Below, in pieces: positions 1,269 through 47,193 of a stretch of 64,000 bases of DNA. This DNA is from Catenuloplanes atrovinosus. GTDB lineage: Bacteria > Actinomycetota > Actinomycetes > Mycobacteriales > Micromonosporaceae. Under the pieces are notes generated by a model. That model worked only from the letters and a program-made list of their open reading frames with translations, was not told the origin of the DNA and did not search any database. Every line of letters begins with the position of its first letter. Positions within the stretch are counted from its first letter, which is position 1. A program made the position numbers and the translations under genes. The stretch is taken from assembly GCF_031458235.1 (NCBI RefSeq), contig NZ_JAVDYB010000001.1:8023001-8087000 (forward strand). The letters run 5' to 3'.

Positions 1269-4004
1269 ATGCCCCGTGTGCTGTCGCGAATGACCCCCCG
1301 CCGCTGGATCGCCGGTACGGCGGCGCTGGCGGTGCTGGCCGGGCTGACCGGGTGGGCGGTGTGGCCGGAGGATCCCGGCTTCACGTTCCACGACGAGGTG
1401 ATCACCGTGGCGTCCGGCCCGTCCGGGACCGAGCCGGTCGCGCTGGACACCCGCTACTTCGTGCCGGACGGCGCGTCGGAGTCCGCGCCGGTGCCGGCGC
1501 TGCTGCTGGCGCACGGGTTCGGCGGCGACATGCACAGCGTGCACGCGCAGGCGGAGGACCTGGCCCGGGCCGGGTACGCGGTGATGACCTGGACCGCGCG
1601 CGGCTTCGGCAAAAGCGGCGGGCAGATCCACCTGAACAGCCAGGACCACGAGGTACGGGACGCGCAGCGGCTGCTGGACCGGCTGGCCGCCCGGCCGGAG
1701 GTGCGCCGGGACGCGCCGGGCGATCCGCGGGTCGGCGCGGTGGGCGGCTCCTACGGCGGCGCGCTCGCGCTGCTGCTGGCCGCGCGCGACTCCCGGGTGG
1801 ACGCGATCGTTCCGATGATCACGTGGAACGACCTGGGCCGCGCGTTCCTGCCGGACGCGGCCGGCGGCCCGGTGGTGGACGGCGTGTTCAAGAAGGCCTG
1901 GGCCGGAACGTTCTTCTCCAGCGGGGCCGGGCCACCGGGGCCGGACACCGATCCCGCCTGCGGGCGCTTCGCCGCGGACGTCTGCGCCGCGTTCCTGGCG
2001 ATCGCGACCACCGGCCGGGCCACGCCGGAGACGGTCGCGGTGCTGGACCGGTCCAGCCCGGCCCGCGTGCTCGACCGGATCAAGGCGCCCACGCTGCTGA
2101 TCCAGGGCCTGGCGGACACGCTGTTCCCGCTCTCCGAGGCGGACGCGAACGCGCGCGGCATCGCGGCGAACGGCCACGGCACGCCGGTCCGGGTCGCCTG
2201 GTACGCGGGCGGGCACGACGGCGGCCCCGGCCCGCGCACCGACCAGGACCGGGTCGAGGAGCTGACCGATGAGTGGCTGGACCACTACGTGGCCGGTGAG
2301 GGCGGCGCGCCGCCGGACTCGTTCACCTACTCGCGGGTGGCCGGCTTCGACGCGCTGGATCGCGGACTGGTCACGAACGCGTACTCGATCGCGGACTATC
2401 CGGGTCTGACCGCGGAGCCGGCCGTGTCGGTGGGCGTGACCGGCCCGCCGCAGCGGATCGCGAACCCGCCGGGCGGCAACCCGGCCGCGCTCTCCTCGCT
2501 GCCCGGCGCCGGGTCCGCGCTGTCGTCCGTGCTCGGCACCGCGCTCTCCGACCTGCCGGGCCAGCACGCGTCCTATGTGTCCGACCCGTTGACGGCCGCG
2601 CTGGACGTGGGCGGCTCACCGCGGGTCCGGCTGCGCGCCGCGTCGCCGACCGGCGAGGCCGTGCTGTTCGTCAAGCTCTACGACGTCGACCCGGACGGTG
2701 GTGCCACGCTCTCCGAGGGTCTGATCGCGCCGGTACGGCTGACCGGCCTGCCCGCCACGATCGACGCCGCGCGCCCGGTCACCGTGACGTTGCCGGCCGT
2801 CGTGCGCCGCGTCGACGAGGGGCACCGGCTGCGGGTCGTGGTCGCCACCTCGGACCAGGCGTTCGCCGGCCCGGACACGCCCGCGGTCTACACCGTCGCG
2901 GTCGAGCCGCAGGTCAGCCTGCCGATCCTGACCGGTACGCCGATGGCCGGCCCGGGTGCGATCTGGCGCTGGGTGCTGGCCGGGCTGCTGGCCGCGATCG
3001 CGCTCGGCCTGGCCGCGGTGCTGCTGGTGGCGCGCGCCCGGCACCGCCGCATCGACCGCTCGGTCGCGGCCGAGCACGCGGACACGCCGCTGGTGGTGTC
3101 CGGGCTGCGCAAGGAGTACGCGGACGGCTTCGTCGCGGTGTCCACCGTGGACTTCACGGTCCGGCGCGGCCAGGTGGTCGGGCTGCTCGGCCCGAACGGC
3201 GCCGGGAAGACCACCACCCTCCGGGTGCTGATGGGCCTGACCCAGCCGACCCGGGGCGAGATCCGGATCTTCGGGCACCGGCTGACGCCCGGCTCACCGG
3301 TGCTCTCCCGGGTCGGGGCGCTGGTCGAGGGCCCGGGCTTCCTGCCACACCTGACCGGCGAGGAGAACTTGCGGGCGTACTGGCGCGCGACCGGCCGGCC
3401 GTGGGAGGACGCCCGGTTCGAGGAGGCGCTGGAGATCGCCGGCCTCGGCGACTCGGTGCACCGGCGGACGCGCAAGTACAGCCACGGCATGCGGCAGCGG
3501 CTGGCGATCGCGCAGGCCATGCTGGGCCTGCCCGAGTTGCTGGTGCTGGACGAGCCGACGGACGGCCTGGATCCGCCGCAGATCGCGGAGATGCGCCGGG
3601 TGCTGCGGCGGTACGCCACGGACGGCCGGGCCGTGCTCGTCTCCAGCCACCTGCTGGCCGAGGTGGAGCAGACCTGCACGCACGCGGTGGTGGTGAACAA
3701 GGGCACGATCGTGGCGTCCGGCCCGGTCGAGGAGATCGTCGGTGACTCGCCCACCGTGCACCTGGACGTGGACGATCCGGTCGCGGCGCGCGCCGCGCTG
3801 GACGGGCTCGGCGGCGTGCGGTTCCTGCAGGAGGCGGAGAACGGCGGCCTGATCGTGGACCTGAACGGCACGCCCCGCCGCGAGGTGGTGGCGTCGCTGG
3901 TCCGGGCCGGCGTGGGCGTGGACCGGGTGGCGCCGCGCCGCCGCCTGGAGGACGCCTTCCTGGCGCTGGTCGGGGAGAACTCGCGGGGGAGTGGGGACCG
4001 ATGA
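1269..4004 (+). CDS. CocE/X-Pro peptidase-like hydrolase fused to an ABC ATPase
   Basis: A 911-residue fusion. An N-terminal signal anchor (about residues 12-30) is followed by an alpha/beta hydrolase of the CocE/X-Pro dipeptidyl-peptidase type with an apparent triad: Ser161 in GGSYGG, Asp283 and His316. A beta-rich PepX-C-like domain follows (about 370-555). A membrane helix at about 565-590 joins this to a full cytosolic ABC ATPase: Walker A GPNGAGKT at 641-648, signature SHGMR at 738-742, Walker B LLVLDEP with Asp761-Glu762. Topology implies an extracellular hydrolase and an intracellular ATPase on one chain. A permease follows at 4075, so I infer one transporter whose ATPase carries an exported hydrolase. 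The stop overlaps the minigene at 4001. Substrate unknown. Confidence 0.9.
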   Translation: MPRVLSRMTPRRWIAGTAALAVLAGLTGWAVWPEDPGFTFHDEVITVASGPSGTEPVALDTRYFVPDGASESAPVPALLLAHGFGGDMHSVHAQAEDLARAGYAVMTWTARGFGKSGGQIHLNSQDHEVRDAQRLLDRLAARPEVRRDAPGDPRVGAVGGSYGGALALLLAARDSRVDAIVPMITWNDLGRAFLPDAAGGPVVDGVFKKAWAGTFFSSGAGPPGPDTDPACGRFAADVCAAFLAIATTGRATPETVAVLDRSSPARVLDRIKAPTLLIQGLADTLFPLSEADANARGIAANGHGTPVRVAWYAGGHDGGPGPRTDQDRVEELTDEWLDHYVAGEGGAPPDSFTYSRVAGFDALDRGLVTNAYSIADYPGLTAEPAVSVGVTGPPQRIANPPGGNPAALSSLPGAGSALSSVLGTALSDLPGQHASYVSDPLTAALDVGGSPRVRLRAASPTGEAVLFVKLYDVDPDGGATLSEGLIAPVRLTGLPATIDAARPVTVTLPAVVRRVDEGHRLRVVVATSDQAFAGPDTPAVYTVAVEPQVSLPILTGTPMAGPGAIWRWVLAGLLAAIALGLAAVLLVARARHRRIDRSVAAEHADTPLVVSGLRKEYADGFVAVSTVDFTVRRGQVVGLLGPNGAGKTTTLRVLMGLTQPTRGEIRIFGHRLTPGSPVLSRVGALVEGPGFLPHLTGEENLRAYWRATGRPWEDARFEEALEIAGLGDSVHRRTRKYSHGMRQRLAIAQAMLGLPELLVLDEPTDGLDPPQIAEMRRVLRRYATDGRAVLVSSHLLAEVEQTCTHAVVVNKGTIVASGPVEEIVGDSPTVHLDVDDPVAARAALDGLGGVRFLQEAENGGLIVDLNGTPRREVVASLVRAGVGVDRVAPRRRLEDAFLALVGENSRGSGDR

Positions 4005-4078
4005 GCGAGCTTGCGAGCGAATCATGGGCTCAGCGCCTCACCCGGCGCGACCGCGGCGAAGCAGGGGAGTCGGCATGA
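4001..4078 (+). CDS. 25-aa bridge minigene (75-bp repeat family, locus 1)
   Basis: A complete short frame from ATG 4001 to TGA 4078, reading MSELASESWAQRL and ending GESA. Its ATG overlaps the stop of the hydrolase-ABC fusion (ATGA at 4001-4004), and its stop overlaps the ATG of the permease (ATGA at 4075-4078). Near-identical peptides of the same length sit at 40742 and, as tandem units, at 43894. The tail carries AGGGGAG, a good ribosome site for the permease start. Translation is inferred from the preserved frame and overlaps. It may instead be a non-coding insertion that happens to be open; the peptide has no recognised domain. Confidence 0.6.
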   Translation: MSELASESWAQRLTRRDRGEAGESA

Positions 4079-4929
4079 GCGGTGGCGCGGTGGGTTACCG
4101 GCCGGGGCGGACGCTGTCGTTCGGGGCGGAGTTCCGGCGGCAGGCGACGCGGATGCGTACCCGGCTGGCATTGGGTTTCATGGTCCTGCTGCCTTTGATC
4201 ATTCTGATCGCGTTCCAGTTCGAGGCCGATGGCGACGATGACGACGGCAACGGCGAGTTCGGCAGCCTGATCGATCTGGCCACGTCCGGCGGGCTCAACT
4301 TCACGCTGTTCACGCTGCTGGTTTCCGCGGGTTTCATGCTCGGCGTGGTGGTGGCGCTGTTCCACGGCGACACCGTCGCCAGCGAGGCGAGCTGGGGCAG
4401 CCTGCGCTACCTGCTGGCGGTGCCGGTGCCGAGGGCGCGGCTGCTGGCCGTGAAGCTGGCGGTGGCGCTCACCTACTCCGGGCTGGCGCTGCTGACCCTG
4501 GCCGCGACGGCGCTGCTGCTGGGCACGGCCCGGTACGGCTGGTCGCCGCTGCGCAGCACGGTCGCGGCGCAGATCCCGCCCGGTGCCGGCCTGCTCCGGC
4601 TGTGCGGCGTGGTGGGCTATCTCGCGGTCAGCCTGCTGGTCGTGGCGGGCCTCGCGTTCCTGCTGTCGGTGCTGACCGACGCGCCGCTCGGCGCGGTCGG
4701 CGGCGCGGTGCTGCTGGTGATCCTCTCCAACATCCTGGACCAGATCACCGCGCTCGGCGGCCTGCGGAACCTGCTGCCCACCCACTTCTCCGACGCCTGG
4801 CTGGGCCTGCTCTCCACGCCCATCCAGGCGGACGACATGGTCAAGGGCACCATCTCCGCGGTCTGTTACGCGACGTTGTTCTGGTCGGCCGCGTTCTGGC
4901 GATTCACCCGCAAGGATGTGACGTCGTAA
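4075..4929 (+). CDS. ABC transporter permease
   Basis: Integral membrane partner of the fused ATPase. About six helices are visible: after residue 22 (FMVLLPLIILIAF), then pairs around LFTLLVSAGFMLGVVV, VALTYSGLALLTLAATALL, YLAVSLLVVAGLAFLLSVL, GAVLLVILSNILDQI and a last one near the C-terminus. This is the ABC-2 permease pattern of NatB/CcmB-like exporters. The start ATG at 4075 follows AGGGGAG at a good distance, so the longer upstream reading from 3991 is rejected. 284 residues. It is translationally joined to the ATPase gene through the 25-aa minigene. Export is the family's usual direction; the cargo is unknown. Confidence 0.85.
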   Translation: MSGGAVGYRPGRTLSFGAEFRRQATRMRTRLALGFMVLLPLIILIAFQFEADGDDDDGNGEFGSLIDLATSGGLNFTLFTLLVSAGFMLGVVVALFHGDTVASEASWGSLRYLLAVPVPRARLLAVKLAVALTYSGLALLTLAATALLLGTARYGWSPLRSTVAAQIPPGAGLLRLCGVVGYLAVSLLVVAGLAFLLSVLTDAPLGAVGGAVLLVILSNILDQITALGGLRNLLPTHFSDAWLGLLSTPIQADDMVKGTISAVCYATLFWSAAFWRFTRKDVTS

Positions 4930-31794: not shown

Positions 31795-33219
31795 ATGTCG
31801 GAGATTCCACCGCAGCCCTACGCGCCCGCCGGTCCGATGCCGCCGGCCGGTCCGGTGCCGCCGGCCGGTCCGGTGCCGCCGAGCGGTTCGCTGCCGCCGA
31901 GCGGTTCGCTGCCGCCGGCCGGTTCGCTGCCGCCGGCCGCGCCGGAGCCGGGCCTGCGGAGGCGGGTGTGGCGGATCATCGGCCTGGCCGTGATGATCGT
32001 CTTCATCGCCGCCTGCGCGATCGCGGTGACGGTCTTCCTCGGCTTCAACATCGGCATCGACGGGCTGCTGCTCGGCACCGCCGCGGCGCTGCTGCCGGTG
32101 CCGGTGCTGATCGGCGCGTTCATGTGGCTCGACCGGTACGAGCCCGAGCCGATCGGCTACCTCGCGTTCTGCTTCGCCTGGGGCGCGTTCGTGGCGACCG
32201 GCGCCGCTCTGGTGGTGAACAGCGTCTCGGCGTACCTCTTCGAAGGCTGGGGTCTGTCCGACTCGCTGGTGGCGGTGCTGGTCGCGCCGTTCATCGAGGA
32301 GGCGATGAAGGCGCTCGGGCCGGTGCTGCTGCTCTGGTGGCGACGGCGCGAGTGGTCCGGCATCACCGACGGCATCGTCTACTGTGGCCTCTCCGCGATC
32401 GGCTTCGCCATGGTGGAGAACATCCTCTACCTGGGCGGGCACGGCTACGCGGCCAGCAACGAGCAGTACGGCCCGGCCAGCGGCGCGCAGCAACTGTTCC
32501 TGATCTTCATCGTGCGCATCCTGTTCACCGGCTTCGCGCACCCGCTGTTCACGTCCATGGCCGGCGTCGGGCTGGGCATCGCCGCCCGTACCGCCGCGCG
32601 CCCGGTCCGCTGGCTCGCGCCGATCTCCGGCCTGCTGGTCGCCATGATGATCCACGGCACGTGGAACCTGCTGCCGTCGCTGGTGGTGGCGACCGGCGAG
32701 CCGATCGTGCTGCTCTACGGCTACCTGGGGCTCATGATCCCGGTCTTCTTCGCCACGGGCGGCTTCGCCATCTGGCTGCGCGGCTGGGAGGGGCGGCTCA
32801 CCGAGCGGACGCTCCCGGCGTACGTCCGGGCCGGCTGGCTCTCCCCGCCCGAGGTGGCCACGCTGAGCAGCCTCGGCCGCCGGCACTCCGCCCGCCGCTG
32901 GGCGAAGCGGGTCGCCGGTGACGCCGGCGTGCGCGCGATGCGCAACTTCCAGTTCGCCACCACGAAGCTCGCGCTGCTGCGCGACGGGATGGACCGCGGG
33001 CTCTACCGGAACCTGGACGCGGCCGGCGCGGAGGAGCGGGCGCTGCTCGGCCGGATCTCGGCCGAGCGGTCCGTCTTCGTGGGCCGGGACCCGCAGACCC
33101 CGCCGGCCCGCTGGGACGGCGAGCGGTACCACATCACGTTCCCGGACGGGGTGAGCCGGCCGATCGAGGCGCCCGCCTCGCCGGTGGTGCCGATCCCGAT
33201 CACCAGCTACTACAGGTAG
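31795..33219 (+). CDS. PrsW-family intramembrane metalloprotease
   Basis: 474 residues. A Pro-rich cytosolic start with six repeated units (PPAGPV, PPSGSL, PPAGSL) precedes about eight helices. The family motifs are all there: VAPFIEEAMKALGPV (EExxK), GFAMVENILYLG, FTGFAHPLFTSMAG and MIHGTWN. PrsW and relatives cleave membrane anti-sigma factors inside the bilayer. The substrate is unknown and no sigma/anti-sigma pair is adjacent. The C-terminal ~120 residues are soluble. Its stop overlaps the end of the convergent GroES-like gene. Confidence 0.9.
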   Translation: MSEIPPQPYAPAGPMPPAGPVPPAGPVPPSGSLPPSGSLPPAGSLPPAAPEPGLRRRVWRIIGLAVMIVFIAACAIAVTVFLGFNIGIDGLLLGTAAALLPVPVLIGAFMWLDRYEPEPIGYLAFCFAWGAFVATGAALVVNSVSAYLFEGWGLSDSLVAVLVAPFIEEAMKALGPVLLLWWRRREWSGITDGIVYCGLSAIGFAMVENILYLGGHGYAASNEQYGPASGAQQLFLIFIVRILFTGFAHPLFTSMAGVGLGIAARTAARPVRWLAPISGLLVAMMIHGTWNLLPSLVVATGEPIVLLYGYLGLMIPVFFATGGFAIWLRGWEGRLTERTLPAYVRAGWLSPPEVATLSSLGRRHSARRWAKRVAGDAGVRAMRNFQFATTKLALLRDGMDRGLYRNLDAAGAEERALLGRISAERSVFVGRDPQTPPARWDGERYHITFPDGVSRPIEAPASPVVPIPITSYYR

Positions 33220-39848: not shown

Positions 39849-40745
39849 ATGACGAAGGTGCTCAGGGTGAGCGCGGTCGACCGGGGGTTCGCCGGTCGGC
39901 AGGTGCTGAAGGACGTCTCGTTCGACGTGACGGCGGGACGCATGACGGGTTTCGTCGGCGCCAACGGTGCCGGCAAGACCACCACGATGCGGATCATTCT
40001 CGGCGTGCTCGCCCCGGACTCCGGCGAGGTGACCTGGGACGGCCGTCCGCTGACCCGGGCCGACCGCCAGGCCTTCGGCTACATGCCCGAGGAGCGGGGC
40101 CTCTACCCCAAGATGTCGGTCCGGGAGCAGGTCGTCTACCTGGGACGGCTGCACGGGCTGACCGCGGCCGAGGCGACGCGCGGCGCGGACGACCTGCTGG
40201 CGCGCGTCGGGCTGACCGACCGGGCGGAGGACAAGCTCGAGACGCTGTCGCTCGGCAACCAGCAGCGCGCGCAGGTGGCCGCCGCGCTGGTGCACGACCC
40301 GGAGGTGCTGGTCCTCGACGAGCCGTTCTCCGGCCTGGACCCGATGGCGATCGACACCGTCGTCTCCGTGCTGCGGGAGCGCGCGCGGGCCGGCGCGTCC
40401 GTGCTGTTCTCCAGCCACCAGCTCGACGTGGTGGAGCGCCTCTGCGACGACGTCGTGATCATCGCGGACGGCGTGATCCGCGCGGCCGGCGAGCGGGAGG
40501 CGCTGCGCCGTCAGTACGCACGCCGCGAGTTCGAGCTGATGGTCGACTCCGACCTGGGCTGGCTGCGGGACCGGCCGGAGACCAGGCTGACCGACCTGGA
40601 CGGCCGCCGCGCGATCGTCGAGCTGGAGCCGGGCGCCGACGATCAGGAACTGCTGCGCGACGCGCTCGCCCGCGGCCCGGTCCGCACGTTCCGCCCGGTC
40701 GTACCCACGCTGGCCGAGATCTTCCGAGAGGTGACCACCCGATGA
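39849..40745 (+). CDS. ABC transporter ATP-binding protein (NatA-like)
   Basis: 298 residues. Walker A GANGAGKTTTMRI near residue 38, signature LSLGNQQRAQVAAAL near 135, Walker B VLVLDEPFSGLDP near 155, and the switch His in LFSSHQLDVVERL. The C-terminal ~80 residues resemble the DUF4162 domain of NatA-type exporters. The permease partner is at 40816. The stop overlaps the minigene start (ATGA at 40742-40745). The spacing to the two-component regulator suggests joint regulation. Confidence 0.93.
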   Translation: MTKVLRVSAVDRGFAGRQVLKDVSFDVTAGRMTGFVGANGAGKTTTMRIILGVLAPDSGEVTWDGRPLTRADRQAFGYMPEERGLYPKMSVREQVVYLGRLHGLTAAEATRGADDLLARVGLTDRAEDKLETLSLGNQQRAQVAAALVHDPEVLVLDEPFSGLDPMAIDTVVSVLRERARAGASVLFSSHQLDVVERLCDDVVIIADGVIRAAGEREALRRQYARREFELMVDSDLGWLRDRPETRLTDLDGRRAIVELEPGADDQELLRDALARGPVRTFRPVVPTLAEIFREVTTR

Positions 40746-40819
40746 GCGAGCGTGCGAGCGAATCGACGGCTCAGCGCCGACCACGCCGGAACCGCGGCAT
40801 CGCGGGAGGTGCGGCATGA
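40742..40819 (+). CDS. 25-aa bridge minigene (75-bp repeat family, locus 2)
   Basis: A complete frame from ATG 40742 to TGA 40819 reading MSERASESTAQRRPRRNRG and ending GGAA. It is exactly the same length (78 bases) as locus 1 at 4001, overlaps the upstream ATPase stop by ATGA and the downstream permease start by ATGA (40816-40819). GGGAGG in its tail is the ribosome site for the permease. About two thirds of peptide positions match the other loci. Translation is inferred, not shown. Confidence 0.6.
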   Translation: MSERASESTAQRRPRRNRGIAGGAA

Positions 40820-41910
40820 GCGGACGGCAGCTGTCCAGCTGGGAGGCGACGCGGCTCGTCACCGCGCGCGAGATCAAGGTCAAGATCAGGGACAAGGCCT
40901 TCCTGATCAGTACGGCGTTCCTGTTGATCTTCGCGGTCCTCGGTACGGTTCTGCCGTCCTTCTTCGACGGTGGCCCTACCAGCGTGGCGGTCGTCGCCGG
41001 CACGTCCACCGAGCCGCTCACCGCGGCCGGCCTGGAGGTGCGCGAGGTCGCGGACGCGGCCGAGGCCGAGCGCCTGGTCCGCGACGGCGAGGTCGACTCC
41101 GCCGTGGTCGGCGGCGTGGTCCTGGCGATGGAGGACGCGCCGGACGACGTGGTGTCCGCGCTCAGCACCGAGCCGGAGGTCCGCCTGCTCGACGCGGACG
41201 TGCTCAGCGCGACGCTGGCGTTCCTGATCCCGTACCTGTTCGCGATGACGTTCTTCTTCACGTCGCTGATGTTCGGGCTGCAGATCGCGCAGAGCGTCAC
41301 CGAGGAGAAGCAGACCCGGATCGTGGAGATCCTGGTGTCCAGCGTGCCGCCGCGGGTGCTGCTGACCGGCAAGGTGCTCGCCGGGGCGATCCTGGCGTTC
41401 GGCCAGATCGCGCTGCTCGCGCTGGTGGCCGTGGCCGGCCTGCGGTTCACCGGCGGGGAGACCGACGGCGACGTGAGCCTGCTGAAGCTGCTGGCCCCGG
41501 CGATCGGCTGGTTCCTGCCGTTCTTCGTGGTCGGGTTCGTGCTGCTGGCCGGGATGTGGGCGGTGGCCGGCGCGCTGGTGAGCCGGCAGGAGGACATCAA
41601 CAGCGCCTCCACGCCGGTGCAGCTCACCATCATGCTGCCGTTCTTCGGCGTGATCTTCCTCAGCGGCAACCCGCTGGCGATGACCATCATGTCGTACGTG
41701 CCGTTCTCCGCGCCGATCGCGATGCCGGTGCGGCTGTTCACCGGCGACGCCGCGGGCTGGGAGCCGATCGTGTCGCTGGTCGTGCTGGTGCTGGCCGCGG
41801 CCGGGATGCTGATCGCCGCGGCGCGGCTCTACGAGGGCTCGCTGCTGCGGACGAACGGCAGGACGTCGCTCGCCCAGGCGTGGCGCTCCCGCGAGGCGCT
41901 GCCCGGCTGA
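40816..41910 (+). CDS. ABC transporter permease (NatB/ABC-2 type)
   Basis: 364 residues. One N-terminal helix (AFLISTAFLLIFAVLGTVL, ~30-48), an outer domain of ~120 residues (VAVVAGTSTEPLTAAGLEV onward), then five more helices (FLIPYLFAMTFFFTSLMF, GAILAFGQIALLALVAVAG and later), with EEKQTRIVEILVSSV between them, the hallmark of NatB/ABC-2 exporter permeases. It pairs with the ATPase at 39849. ATG 40816 follows GGGAGG. Probably exports a drug, lipid or ion; the substrate is unknown. Confidence 0.92.
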   Translation: MSGRQLSSWEATRLVTAREIKVKIRDKAFLISTAFLLIFAVLGTVLPSFFDGGPTSVAVVAGTSTEPLTAAGLEVREVADAAEAERLVRDGEVDSAVVGGVVLAMEDAPDDVVSALSTEPEVRLLDADVLSATLAFLIPYLFAMTFFFTSLMFGLQIAQSVTEEKQTRIVEILVSSVPPRVLLTGKVLAGAILAFGQIALLALVAVAGLRFTGGETDGDVSLLKLLAPAIGWFLPFFVVGFVLLAGMWAVAGALVSRQEDINSASTPVQLTIMLPFFGVIFLSGNPLAMTIMSYVPFSAPIAMPVRLFTGDAAGWEPIVSLVVLVLAAAGMLIAAARLYEGSLLRTNGRTSLAQAWRSREALPG

Positions 41911-43270: not shown

Positions 43271-43897
43271 GTGAAGTTTTCCTTCCGCCCCGTCGAGGGC
43301 GCCTTCTACGAGCTCTTCACCCGGGCCGCGTACAACCTGGTACGCGGCACCGAGCTGCTGAACGAGCTGGCCCTGCCGGGGGTCGACGTGCAGTCGGTCA
43401 GCGAGCGGCTGACCGAGGTGGAGCACGACAGCGACGCCATCACGCACGAGTTGTACAAGAAGATCAACTCCACCTTTGTGACGCCGTTCGACCGGGAGGA
43501 CATCTATTCGCTCGGCTCGCAGCTGGACGACGTGATGGACCACCTGGAGGCGGTCGGCAACCTGCTCTACCTCTACGGGCTCACCAAGCTCCCGGCGCTG
43601 CCGCGCGAACTGCACGAACTGGTCAACGTGCTGGACCAGCAGGCGAAGCTGACCGCGGACGCGATGCCGCGGCTGCGCGCCATGAAGGACCTCGACGAGT
43701 ACTGGATCGAGTGCAACCGGCTGGAGAACGACGGCGACCGGGCGTACCGGATGCTGCTGGTCCGCCTCTTCTCCGGCGAGTACGACGCGCTGACGGTGCT
43801 GAAGCTCAAGGAGGTCGCGGACGAGCTGGAGGCCGCCTGCGACGCCTTCGAGCACGTGGCCAACACGGTCGAGACGATCGCGGTCAAGGAGTCATGA
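43271..43897 (+). CDS. DUF47/PhoU-like accessory protein of phosphate transporter
   Basis: 208 residues of helical PhoU-like fold (FYELFTRAAYNLVRGTELL, VEHDSDAITHELYKKIN, FVTPFDREDIYSLGSQLDDV, NRLENDGDRAYRMLLVRLF). The conserved E-x-x-x-D clusters bind metal and the protein partners with PiT transporters (YkaA/Pit accessory protein). It is followed by a PiT gene, but the two, which in many genomes abut, are here held apart by a 75-bp tandem repeat frame; the stop overlaps that frame's ATG (43894). Start GTG 43271. Confidence 0.93.
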   Translation: MKFSFRPVEGAFYELFTRAAYNLVRGTELLNELALPGVDVQSVSERLTEVEHDSDAITHELYKKINSTFVTPFDREDIYSLGSQLDDVMDHLEAVGNLLYLYGLTKLPALPRELHELVNVLDQQAKLTADAMPRLRAMKDLDEYWIECNRLENDGDRAYRMLLVRLFSGEYDALTVLKLKEVADELEAACDAFEHVANTVETIAVKES

Positions 43898-44271
43898 GCG
43901 AGCTTGCGAGCGAATCATCGGCTCAGCGCCGACCACGACGCGACTGCGGCATGCGAAGGATCTCCGGCCTCCGTGAGCTTGCGAGCGAATCATCGGCTCA
44001 GCGCCGACCACGACGCGACTGCGGCTTGCGAAGGATCTCCGGCCTCCGTGAGCTTGCGAGCGAATCATCGGCTCAGCGCCGACCACGACGCGACTGCGGC
44101 TTGCGAAGGATCTCCGGCCTCCGTGAGCTTGCGAGCGAATCATCGGCTCAGCGCCGACCACGACGCGACTGCGGCTTGCGAAGGATCTCCGGCCTCCGTG
44201 AGCTTGCGAGCGAATCATCGGCTCAGCGCCGACCACACGGATACCGCAGCGTGAAGGGCAGCCCGGCATGA
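43894..44271 (+). CDS. 125-aa bridge frame of tandem 25-residue units (locus 3)
   Basis: An open frame from ATG 43894 to TGA 44271, overlapping the DUF47 stop (ATGA 43894-43897) and the PiT ATG (ATGA 44268-44271). The peptide is MS, four 25-residue units (ELASESSAQRRPRRDCG then (L/M)RRISGLR), and a final diverged unit ending VKGSPA. The unit length of 75 bases preserves the frame through all copies. Loci 1 and 2 hold a single unit in the same setting. It is either translated as a basic, Arg/Ser-rich repeat peptide or kept open to carry ribosomes through. Confidence 0.6.
   Translation: MSELASESSAQRRPRRDCGMRRISGLRELASESSAQRRPRRDCGLRRISGLRELASESSAQRRPRRDCGLRRISGLRELASESSAQRRPRRDCGLRRISGLRELASESSAQRRPHGYRSVKGSPA
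43900..44236 (+). repeat. 75-bp tandem repeat, 4 full copies plus a partial fifth
   Basis: Copies start with GAGCTTGCGAGC at 43900, 43975, 44050, 44125 and 44200, an exact 75-base period. The full copies are almost identical; copy 1 has ATGCGAAGG where the rest have TTGCGAAGG, and the fifth diverges after GACCACA near 44236. Near-identity points to recent expansion by slippage or unequal recombination. There are no spacers, so it is not CRISPR. Single diverged copies lie at 4001 and 40742. Confidence 0.97.
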
Positions 44272-45275
44272 GCCCCGAGCTGGTCGCCGTGGTCGCGGTG
44301 ATCGTGATGGCGATGGTGTTCGACTACACCAACGGGTTCCACGACGCCGCGAACGCGATCGCCACCAGCATCTCCACCCGGGCGCTGACGCCGCGGGCGG
44401 CGCTGGTGATGGCCGCGTTCGGCAACCTCGTCGGCGCGCACTTCGGCTCCGGCGTGGCCGCGACGGTCGGCGAAGGGCTGGTCAACCTGCCGACCGGCGT
44501 GGCGAGCCTGGGCGTGCTCTTCGCGGGCGTGACCGGCGCGATCATCTGGAACCTGATCACCTGGTACCTCGGGCTGCCGTCCTCGTCGTCGCACGCGCTG
44601 TTCGGCGGGCTGGTCGGCGCCACGATGTTCGCGGCCGGCGGGTCGGTGCAGTGGGGGATCATCGTCGACAAGATCGTCGTACCGATGTTCCTGTCCCCGC
44701 TGGTCGGCGTGGTGCTCGGCTTCGCCGTCATGATCGCAATCCTGTGGATCTTCCGGCGCGGGCATCCGGCGCGGCTGAACCGGGGCTTCCGCGCGGCGCA
44801 GTCCGTGTCCGCCGCCGCGATGGCGATCGGGCACGGCATGCAGGACGCCGCGAAGATCGTGGGCATCGTGGTGCTGGCGCTCTACACCGGCGGGTTCGCG
44901 GCCAACCGCACCGATCCGCCGGAGTGGGTCGTCTGGGCGGCCGCGATCGTGCTGGCGGCCGGCACCTACGCGGGCGGCTGGCGGATCATCCGGACGCTCG
45001 GCCGCAAGATCATCGACCTGGGCCCGCCGGAGGGCTTCGCGGCCGAGACCGTCGCCAGTGGCGTGCTCTACTTCAACGCGCTGGTCCTGCACGCCCCGAT
45101 CTCCACCACGCACACGATCACCAGCGCGATCATGGGTGTCGGCGCCACCAAGCGGCTCTCCGCGGTCCGGTGGAACGTGGCCGGCAACATCGTGATCGCC
45201 TGGGTCATCACGTTCCCGGCCGCCGCGTTCTTCGCCTGCCTGACCTACTTCGTGGTGGCCCCGATCTTCGGCTGA
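44268..45275 (+). CDS. Low-affinity inorganic phosphate transporter (PiT family)
   Basis: 335 residues, about ten helices. Both halves of the duplicated PiT signature are present: DYTNGFHDAANAIATSISTR near residue 20 and ISTTHTITSAIMGVGATKR near 280. Moves metal-phosphate with protons across the plasma membrane. The DUF47 accessory gene lies upstream and the two are joined by the 125-aa bridge frame; GAAGGG ahead of ATG 44268 serves as ribosome site. A possible PHO box lies further upstream. Together with pstSCA at 61 kb this window holds both low- and high-affinity uptake. Confidence 0.95.
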   Translation: MSPELVAVVAVIVMAMVFDYTNGFHDAANAIATSISTRALTPRAALVMAAFGNLVGAHFGSGVAATVGEGLVNLPTGVASLGVLFAGVTGAIIWNLITWYLGLPSSSSHALFGGLVGATMFAAGGSVQWGIIVDKIVVPMFLSPLVGVVLGFAVMIAILWIFRRGHPARLNRGFRAAQSVSAAAMAIGHGMQDAAKIVGIVVLALYTGGFAANRTDPPEWVVWAAAIVLAAGTYAGGWRIIRTLGRKIIDLGPPEGFAAETVASGVLYFNALVLHAPISTTHTITSAIMGVGATKRLSAVRWNVAGNIVIAWVITFPAAAFFACLTYFVVAPIFG

Positions 45276-46943: not shown

Positions 46944-46961
46944 GCCGCCACCGCCACCCGC

Positions 46962-47193
46962 GCGGTCGTGCCGCCCGCGCGGTCGTGCCGCCCGCGCGGT
47001 CGGCGCCGCCCGCGCGGTCAGTGCCGCACGAGCGGTCAGTGCCGCACGAGCGGTCAGTGCCGCCCGCGCGGTCAGTGCCGCACGAGCGGTCAGTGCCGCA
47101 CGAGCGGTCAGTGCCGCCCGCGCGGTCAGTGCCGCCCGCGCGGTCAGTGCCGCACGAGCGGTCAGCGCCGCACGAGCGGTCAGTGGCGGCTCA
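46962..47193. repeat. 17/18-bp tandem repeat (about 13 copies) between convergent stops
   Basis: GCGGTC recurs at 46962, 46979, 46996, 47014, 47032, 47050, 47068, 47086, 47104, 47122, 47140, 47158 and 47176: two 17-base steps then 18-base steps. Two unit types alternate, with CCCGC or CACGA before GCGGTCAGTGCCG. The array fills nearly all the space between the NUDIX stop (46943) and the EI24 stop (47198). Read on the minus strand it would give LTARAA repeats, but no gene start leads into it. Probably a variable-number repeat. Confidence 0.95.

Follow-up and report, generated by a model that had tools for sequence, protein, structure and literature searches.

The window examined here is a stretch of 64,000 nt from the genome of Catenuloplanes atrovinosus, in which three pairs of adjacent genes are separated by copies of a short repeated element. 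At each of the three loci the element begins at an ATG that overlaps the TGA of the upstream gene and ends at a TGA that overlaps the ATG of the downstream gene, as a first-pass annotation had described. The sequence confirms this layout in all three cases, together with the lengths given there of 78, 78 and 378 nt, and Pfam places the flanking genes in the types that had been named. The features are as follows.

1269..4004, + strand, upstream gene, X-Pro dipeptidyl-peptidase/ABC-ATPase fusion (Pfam); ends in the TGA of the 5' ATGA
4001..4078, + strand, single element unit of 78 nt with a 25-aa mini-ORF, MSELASESWAQRLTRRDRGEAGESA, from ATGA 4001-4004 to ATGA 4075-4078
4001..4022, + strand, 5' dyad AT-GA-GC-GA-GC-TT-GC-GA-GC-GA-AT (sequence; covariation in 65 distinct cores)
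4063..4069, + strand, ribosome-binding-like AGGGGAG, 5' of the 3' ATGA (sequence; Shine-Dalgarno test across arrays)
4075..4929, + strand, downstream gene, ABC-2 permease (Pfam)
39849..40745, + strand, upstream gene, ABC ATPase, DrrA-like (Pfam)
40742..40819, + strand, single element unit of 78 nt with a 25-aa mini-ORF, MSERASESTAQRRPRRNRGIAGGAA, ATGA to ATGA
40804-40809, + strand, ribosome-binding-like GGGAGG in the 40742 unit (sequence)
40816..41910, + strand, downstream gene, ABC-2 permease (Pfam)
43271..43897, + strand, upstream gene, DUF47/PhoU-like (Pfam)
43894..44271, + strand, five-unit in-frame fused array of 378 nt and 125 aa, from ATGA 43894-43897 to ATGA 44268-44271
44253-44258, + strand, ribosome-binding-like GAAGGG in the 43894 array (sequence)
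44268..45275, + strand, downstream gene, PHO4/PiT phosphate transporter (Pfam)

The two 78-nt units encode peptides of 25 aa that start MSELASESWAQRL... and MSERASESTAQRR..., and the array at 43894 is made up of four 75-nt units and a last unit of 78 nt (TRF: period 75, 4.5 copies, 99 % matches). The genes that adjoin the element in the window differ in kind, as judged by Pfam. No curated Rfam RNA family matches the window between 39000 and 45000, the two matches returned lying far under the gathering score. Elsewhere in the window there is an 18-bp tandem repeat of thirteen copies (GCCGCCCGCGCGGTCAGT, 92 % matches) at 46953-47185, and a second, shorter 18-bp array at 31823-31939.

The family numbers approximately 140-150 units in the 8.9 Mb genome (one contig, G000). 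A 29-base pattern allowing up to three mismatches gives 138 matches in the genome, compared with none for a reversed-pattern control, and a looser pattern gives 150 compared with two; the core matches seven times in the window, where 0.00 matches are expected from 100 dinucleotide shuffles. From among the matches listed, 59 arrays with 143 units, mainly of 74-75 nt, were read. Seven of 52 clusters, weak pattern matches lacking the layout, were discarded by hand, and one site, 7003022 (L323), holds no recognisable unit.

The 5' tetranucleotide of the first unit is ATGA in 54 arrays, GTGA in three and TTGA in one (58 of the 59 arrays; L033 is truncated). An upstream frame of at least 100 codons and high GC3 ends in the 5' TGA of 41 of the 59 arrays, the remainder lying at first genes or fitting less clearly. 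At the other end, a chain of mini-genes or an in-frame fusion terminates exactly on a DTGA start in 52 of the 59, and this start opens a frame of at least 80 codons in 48. Fifty of these 3' ends were found by script, 46 of them opening at least 80 codons and four opening short frames of 23, 32, 53 and 72 codons; the other two, L045 and L314, were recognised on re-reading. In-frame fusion to the downstream gene is present in six arrays (L031, L040, L053, L058, L066 and L316). A crude count of coupled junctions without the element gave 27 ATGA, 31 GTGA and six TTGA, but this is noisy (18 impossible CTGA calls) and carries little weight.

A repeat period of 75 bp, which the first-pass annotation had assigned to the family, holds for the array at 43894 but not genome-wide, where 74 nt is the commoner period (21 arrays, compared with 14 of 75 nt); there are also 22 single units and two arrays of mixed period. 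A period of 74 is equal to 2 modulo 3, so that the TGA of each unit overlaps the next ATG and every unit has its own ATGA. Units with a period of 75 are fused in frame. The spacing from start to start is mostly 74 or 77 nt. One irregular array of seven units (L318; G000 2618000-2622700) has periods of 73, 73, 73, 74, 71 and 74, with ATGAGTGA after two of the three 73-nt units, giving a second, overlapping TGA in a shifted frame.

Four sister genomes (G001-G004) were searched with joined flanks, first those of 22 junctions and then those of another 22, the better matches being taken and weak rows left. An exact empty site, at which the flanks meet at one DTGA, is present in at least one relative for 19 of 38 comparable own sites (45 distinct relative contexts), and a relative with its flanks no more than 8 nt apart for 29 of the 38 own sites compared. 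As 19 of the 38 sites have an empty relative, the element is a precise insert at DTGA. The polarity of insertion rests on parsimony, no new insertion having been seen within a species. The three loci in the window conform to this pattern to differing degrees. In place of the unit at 4001 there is a single ATGA in G001, G003 and G004 (flanks 7 nt apart) and a 34-nt in-frame remnant in G002 (L251). The 40742 unit is absent in all four relatives, with a few bases of shift. The site at 43894 has a single ATGA in G002, a single GTGA in G004, and one diverged unit each in G001 and G003.

Other junctions are variable in other ways. Different units occupy the L045 site in G002, G003 and G004. Remnants some 30 nt long are fused in frame as N-terminal extensions at the 4001 site (G002, L251) and at the L063 site (G002 and G004; L265), where the gene is presumably a galactokinase, from its motif. 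L095, like L265 and L251, is a truncated copy forming an in-frame N-terminal extension of a conserved gene. A different insert, starting GTGAGTGCGAGGAGTGCAGCGAAGCG, is present at L354 and L276 (G001; the junction orthologous to G000 1696738), and may represent another family of the same kind. At the site of L042 in G003 (L272), the junction holds a short ATGAACGGCGGTGCTGCG-like repeat array with no element core.

At four compared sites (L035b, L036b, L050 and L065), the D bases at the 5' and 3' ends in the element's own genome differ, which bears on which DTGA is old. L035b is exactly empty in two relatives, each with ATGA as at the own 5' end, and two other relatives hold inserts of other kinds that likewise run from ATGA to GTGA. 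The 5' base is also shared, though not in exact empty sites, at L036b (three relatives with GTGA, their flanks separated by 31-40 nt), at L065 (GTGA in two relatives, 18 and 24 nt apart, two others holding units that start ATGA) and at L050 (ATGG in one relative). Against an old 5' DTGA, relatives have G at three sites with A at both ends in the own genome (L056a, L056b and L322), and A at L031, whose own 5' base is G. It therefore seems likely, rather than settled, that insertion was 3' of the old DTGA, as judged from four sites, exact empty sites being present at L035b alone.

In 46 of 54 last units, the stretch ahead of the 3' DTGA has a match of at least 4 nt to the anti-Shine-Dalgarno complement. 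Within arrays, such a match is present in 38 of 41 internal 74-nt units, compared with 16 of 37 read-through 75-nt units, counts in which the units of one array are not independent. Conservation of a peptide was considered and rejected. The codon positions show little signal (entropy 0.23/0.26/0.35 for columns 5-24, 1.26/1.03/1.21 for columns 45-66), and compensatory changes, G17 to A and T22 to C among them, alter amino acids. The constraint is more on the nucleic acid than on the peptide.

The 5' dyad has Watson-Crick pairs at 1-22, 2-21, 5-18, 6-17, 9-14 and 10-13, with tandem GA mismatches between them; at 4001..4022, pair 1-22 takes in the D base of the 5' DTGA. Covariation was assessed in 65 of 82 distinct cores, a set that leaves out exact copies from the named scan and from which 16 cores that exceeded five mismatches to the consensus, and one other row, were removed by hand. 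In these 65 cores, 95.1 % of the dyad cells pair. The covariation score is 0.230, compared with 0.163 (SD 0.008) in shuffles, none of the 500 being as high, and no more than 0.067 when the dyad is slid; the cells are not independent events. Four dyad pairs are changed on both sides, a number reached by 17 of the 500 shuffles (one of five measures).

In first units over all loci examined, the D base at position 1 and the base at position 22 are A-T in 181, G-C in 26 and G-T in six, with A-C, T-T and C-T once each. These counts are biased in two ways: a scan requiring T22 supplied most A-T rows, and one excluding T22 supplied 21 of the G-C rows, in ten genomes most of which were picked after GTGA/C22 had been seen there. 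Neither scan pattern constrained D. In the Catenuloplanes loci alone there are 70 A-T and four G-C, with one exception (L320, A-C), and three copies in the family-genome matches are further ATGA/C22 exceptions. Inner array junctions need not obey the rule, which is what slippage predicts. If the D base belongs to the target, choice of target by pairing, or later compensation, would be the simplest readings; with a D base that is part of the element, the association could also come from two linked subfamilies. A folding-energy signal is absent, the mean z being positive throughout (+0.16 to +1.13) in three groups consisting of 60 of 87 Catenuloplanes units and of 39 and 49 named units. A second GA dyad, built like the 5' one and lying near the 3' end, was rejected as a general feature; 66 of 99 named units have it, but not one of 87 Catenuloplanes tails does, and the shuffle control ignores relatedness.

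The core, TGAGCGAGCNTGCGAGCGAATCA, is present in at least 120 stretches of named actinobacterial contigs. After 17 placements near contig edges and three duplicates had been dropped, 120 distinct placements were examined. In 98, the 3' end falls on a DTG overlapping the TGA of the mini-ORF, and these open at least 80 codons in 79 cases, a next unit in 14 and a short frame in five. A further 20 open more than 90 codons (fusions or arrays) and two end elsewhere. An upstream frame of at least 100 codons runs into the 5' TGA in 98 of the 120. By the first-pass annotation's own criterion, the three cases would be chance if copies in other genomes were mostly intergenic, of random length or out of frame, and this is not the pattern encountered: where the next start was found by GC3 and not by the frame of the mini-ORF, 70 of 84 distances are equal to 2 modulo 3. 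That count leaves out placements followed by another unit, and 21 placements have no such start.

Coupling at both ends is found in at least 14 named genera, including Pseudonocardia, Actinoplanes, Amorphoplanes, Catenuloplanes, Kibdelosporangium, Kutzneria, Actinokineospora, Actinophytocola, Rhodococcus, Nocardia, Sciscionella, Amycolatopsis, Saccharothrix and Trebonia. In the genomes sampled, the core is present in 23 of 121 of the family (own genome included) and in seven of 394 of the class, so that its distribution is patchy. It occurs in one of 25 sampled genomes of genus g40 (taken as Mycobacterium) and in at least four Mycobacterium/Mycolicibacterium contigs, where none of the three placements that could be judged is coupled at both ends. 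Searches with one 80-nt query (E 1e-5) and with an exact 22-mer gave no match in plasmids, phages and viral contigs. In G502, C22 copies (L294, L298 and L301) lie within a longer repeat with the inverted flanks GGGCGCAAGGTCGCATAC and GTATGCGGCCTTACGCCC.

The suggestion, made from the window alone, of a mobile or dispersed minigene entering ATGA junctions is supported by the empty sites in sister species (19 of 38), by the 59 arrays and by the same core in other genera, where 98 of 120 placements are coupled at the 3' end. In our view the element is very probably a MIRU-like, non-autonomous mobile mini-cistron, which would be nearly silent because translational coupling is preserved. Insertion would occur at the DTGA formed by a gene's stop and the next start, converting one DTGA to two, as seen in the empty sites; the few informative sites point to insertion 3' of the old DTGA as most likely. 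A Shine-Dalgarno-like stretch precedes the second DTGA, and an open frame of fitting length lies between both. A ribosome ending the upstream gene could re-start on the mini-ORF and then on the downstream gene; frame and ribosome-binding stretch are present, and translation is predicted from them. Since re-starting would be possible at both DTGAs, an inserted unit should be almost silent. Together the two DTGA copies make up a short direct repeat, from which slippage could multiply units with a period of 74, each of them coupled. One extra base, giving a period of 75, would fuse units in frame, and the internal ribosome-binding stretch would then decay, in keeping with the pattern in the arrays.

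The outermost pair of the dyad, between the D base of the 5' DTGA and position 22, suggests that the target may be recognised by pairing in a folded single strand. A wider proposal, which we offer tentatively and regard as rather doubtful, is that a class of actinobacterial DNA elements finds its site by pairing of a folded strand with the operon stop-start tetranucleotide, T22 leading to ATGA and C22 to GTGA; the enzyme would not be a known Y1 HUH transposase, and the target read by the element would be the very sequence that permits translation through it, so that target choice and invisibility to selection would be one mechanism. We know of no explanation for the movement of MIRU-type repeats. 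With its many copies, clean empty sites and a compensatory pair at the insertion point, the family makes the question of movement testable in harmless soil actinomycetes. The element also indicates a route by which operons may gain mini-genes and N-terminal extensions, apparently without loss of translation.

Other explanations have to be set against a mobile mini-cistron of this kind. Movement as in single-strand IS200/IS605 or REP-like systems, in which a Y1 HUH transposase cuts 3' of a guide-paired tetranucleotide and moves the folded top strand, would account for the tetranucleotide at both ends and for covariation of its first base with an internal base. IS608, in which the TTAC target pairs with a guide inside the element (PMC5934647), is a precedent, and E. 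coli REP likewise has a mismatched stem (PMC8266576). A Y1/RAYT transposase was nevertheless rejected as partner: PF01797 (Y1_Tnp) is found in none of ten carriers, while five of 14 control genomes are positive. In addition, the partner positions, 19-22, are located 3' of the hairpin, whereas the IS608 guide is 5' (PMC5934647), and the pairing rule has exceptions (A-C at L320, and six G-T). We consider this explanation unlikely. Spread without a transposase, by template switching in replication or gene conversion between short DTGAGC-like homologies, is distinctly unlikely. The very short target, the direct repeats at both ends and the inner array junction base, which at L065 and L102 is the 3' D base as slippage predicts, are in its favour, but a homology of four bases would seem too little for precise insertion at coupled junctions across many genera, and covariation of D with position 22 would be unexpected.

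The element could instead be an expression device kept by the host, the mini-ORF, 5' hairpin or a promoter in the unit regulating the downstream gene. The start codon lies inside the dyad, whose pairs covary, the ribosome-binding stretch and frame are kept where re-initiation is needed, and a senX3-regX3 MIRU region is reported to drive regX3 expression (PMC4213456). Against this, presence and absence vary among sister species at the same junctions, the adjoining window genes are unlike one another, and folding energy is no lower than in shuffles. The first-pass annotation had itself offered a coupling device as one possibility; the coupling layout is preserved in sequence, but benefit to the host finds no support, and we consider such a role very unlikely. 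Chance or a gene-calling artefact has a negligible probability, being already refuted by the shuffles (0.00 expected), by the reversed-pattern controls (0 and 2, compared with 138 and 150) and by the empty sites.

Several known systems share features with the family. Rickettsia palindromic elements are small mobile repeats that keep the reading frame and lie inside proteins, unlike the element described here, which is located between genes and is only sometimes an N-terminal extension. Bicistronic designs and leader mini-cistrons also place a short coupled ORF before the next gene and deliver ribosomes to it (PMC12548453), but they are engineered or confined to a single locus, whereas this family is dispersed and mobile. 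The family resembles IS200/IS605 (IS608) and REP/REPtron (PMC5934647, PMC8266576) in insertion beside a tetranucleotide and in an imperfect hairpin, and the statistical pairing of D1 with position 22, which has exceptions, may correspond to their choice of target through an internal guide. IS608 inserts 3' of TTAC, which is retained in the left flank and pairs with the guide AAAG, the right guide being GAAT (PMC5934647). The element differs from both in having no Y1 transposase in the ten carriers, in the position of its pairing partner 3' of the hairpin, and in being an ORF with a ribosome-binding stretch. Because of the absence of Y1 and the location of the partner on the other side of the hairpin, it is filed with the MIRU kind and not as a member of IS200/IS605, although it may work like one.

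The first-pass annotation knew of no description of such an element, but there is a described precedent in the mycobacterial MIRUs, which PMC12548453 presents as inserts that are apparently mobile and that couple at start junctions of -4 nt. MIRUs are short dispersed units that often lie in tandem, and those at senX3-regX3 are of 77 bp and 53 bp, both equal to 2 modulo 3 (PMC4213456). The resemblance is one of layout and behaviour, drawn from MIRU descriptions and not from sequence (PMC12548453, PMC4213456, PMC2734929). Like MIRUs, the family is a dispersed short repeat in the range of approximately 40-100 bp, single or in tandem (59 arrays, 143 units); its mini-ORF overlaps the flanking ORFs at DTGA, by -4 nt (5' in 58 of 59 arrays, 3' in 52 of 59); and it is apparently mobile into DTGA sites, with exact empty sites at 19 of 38 junctions. 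In the family here the covarying dyad takes in the D base of the 5' DTGA, which may set it apart from MIRUs. Searches of an open-access library listed no account of this family. What is new is the sequence family, its empty sites and its structural signal; the kind of element is already known from MIRUs.
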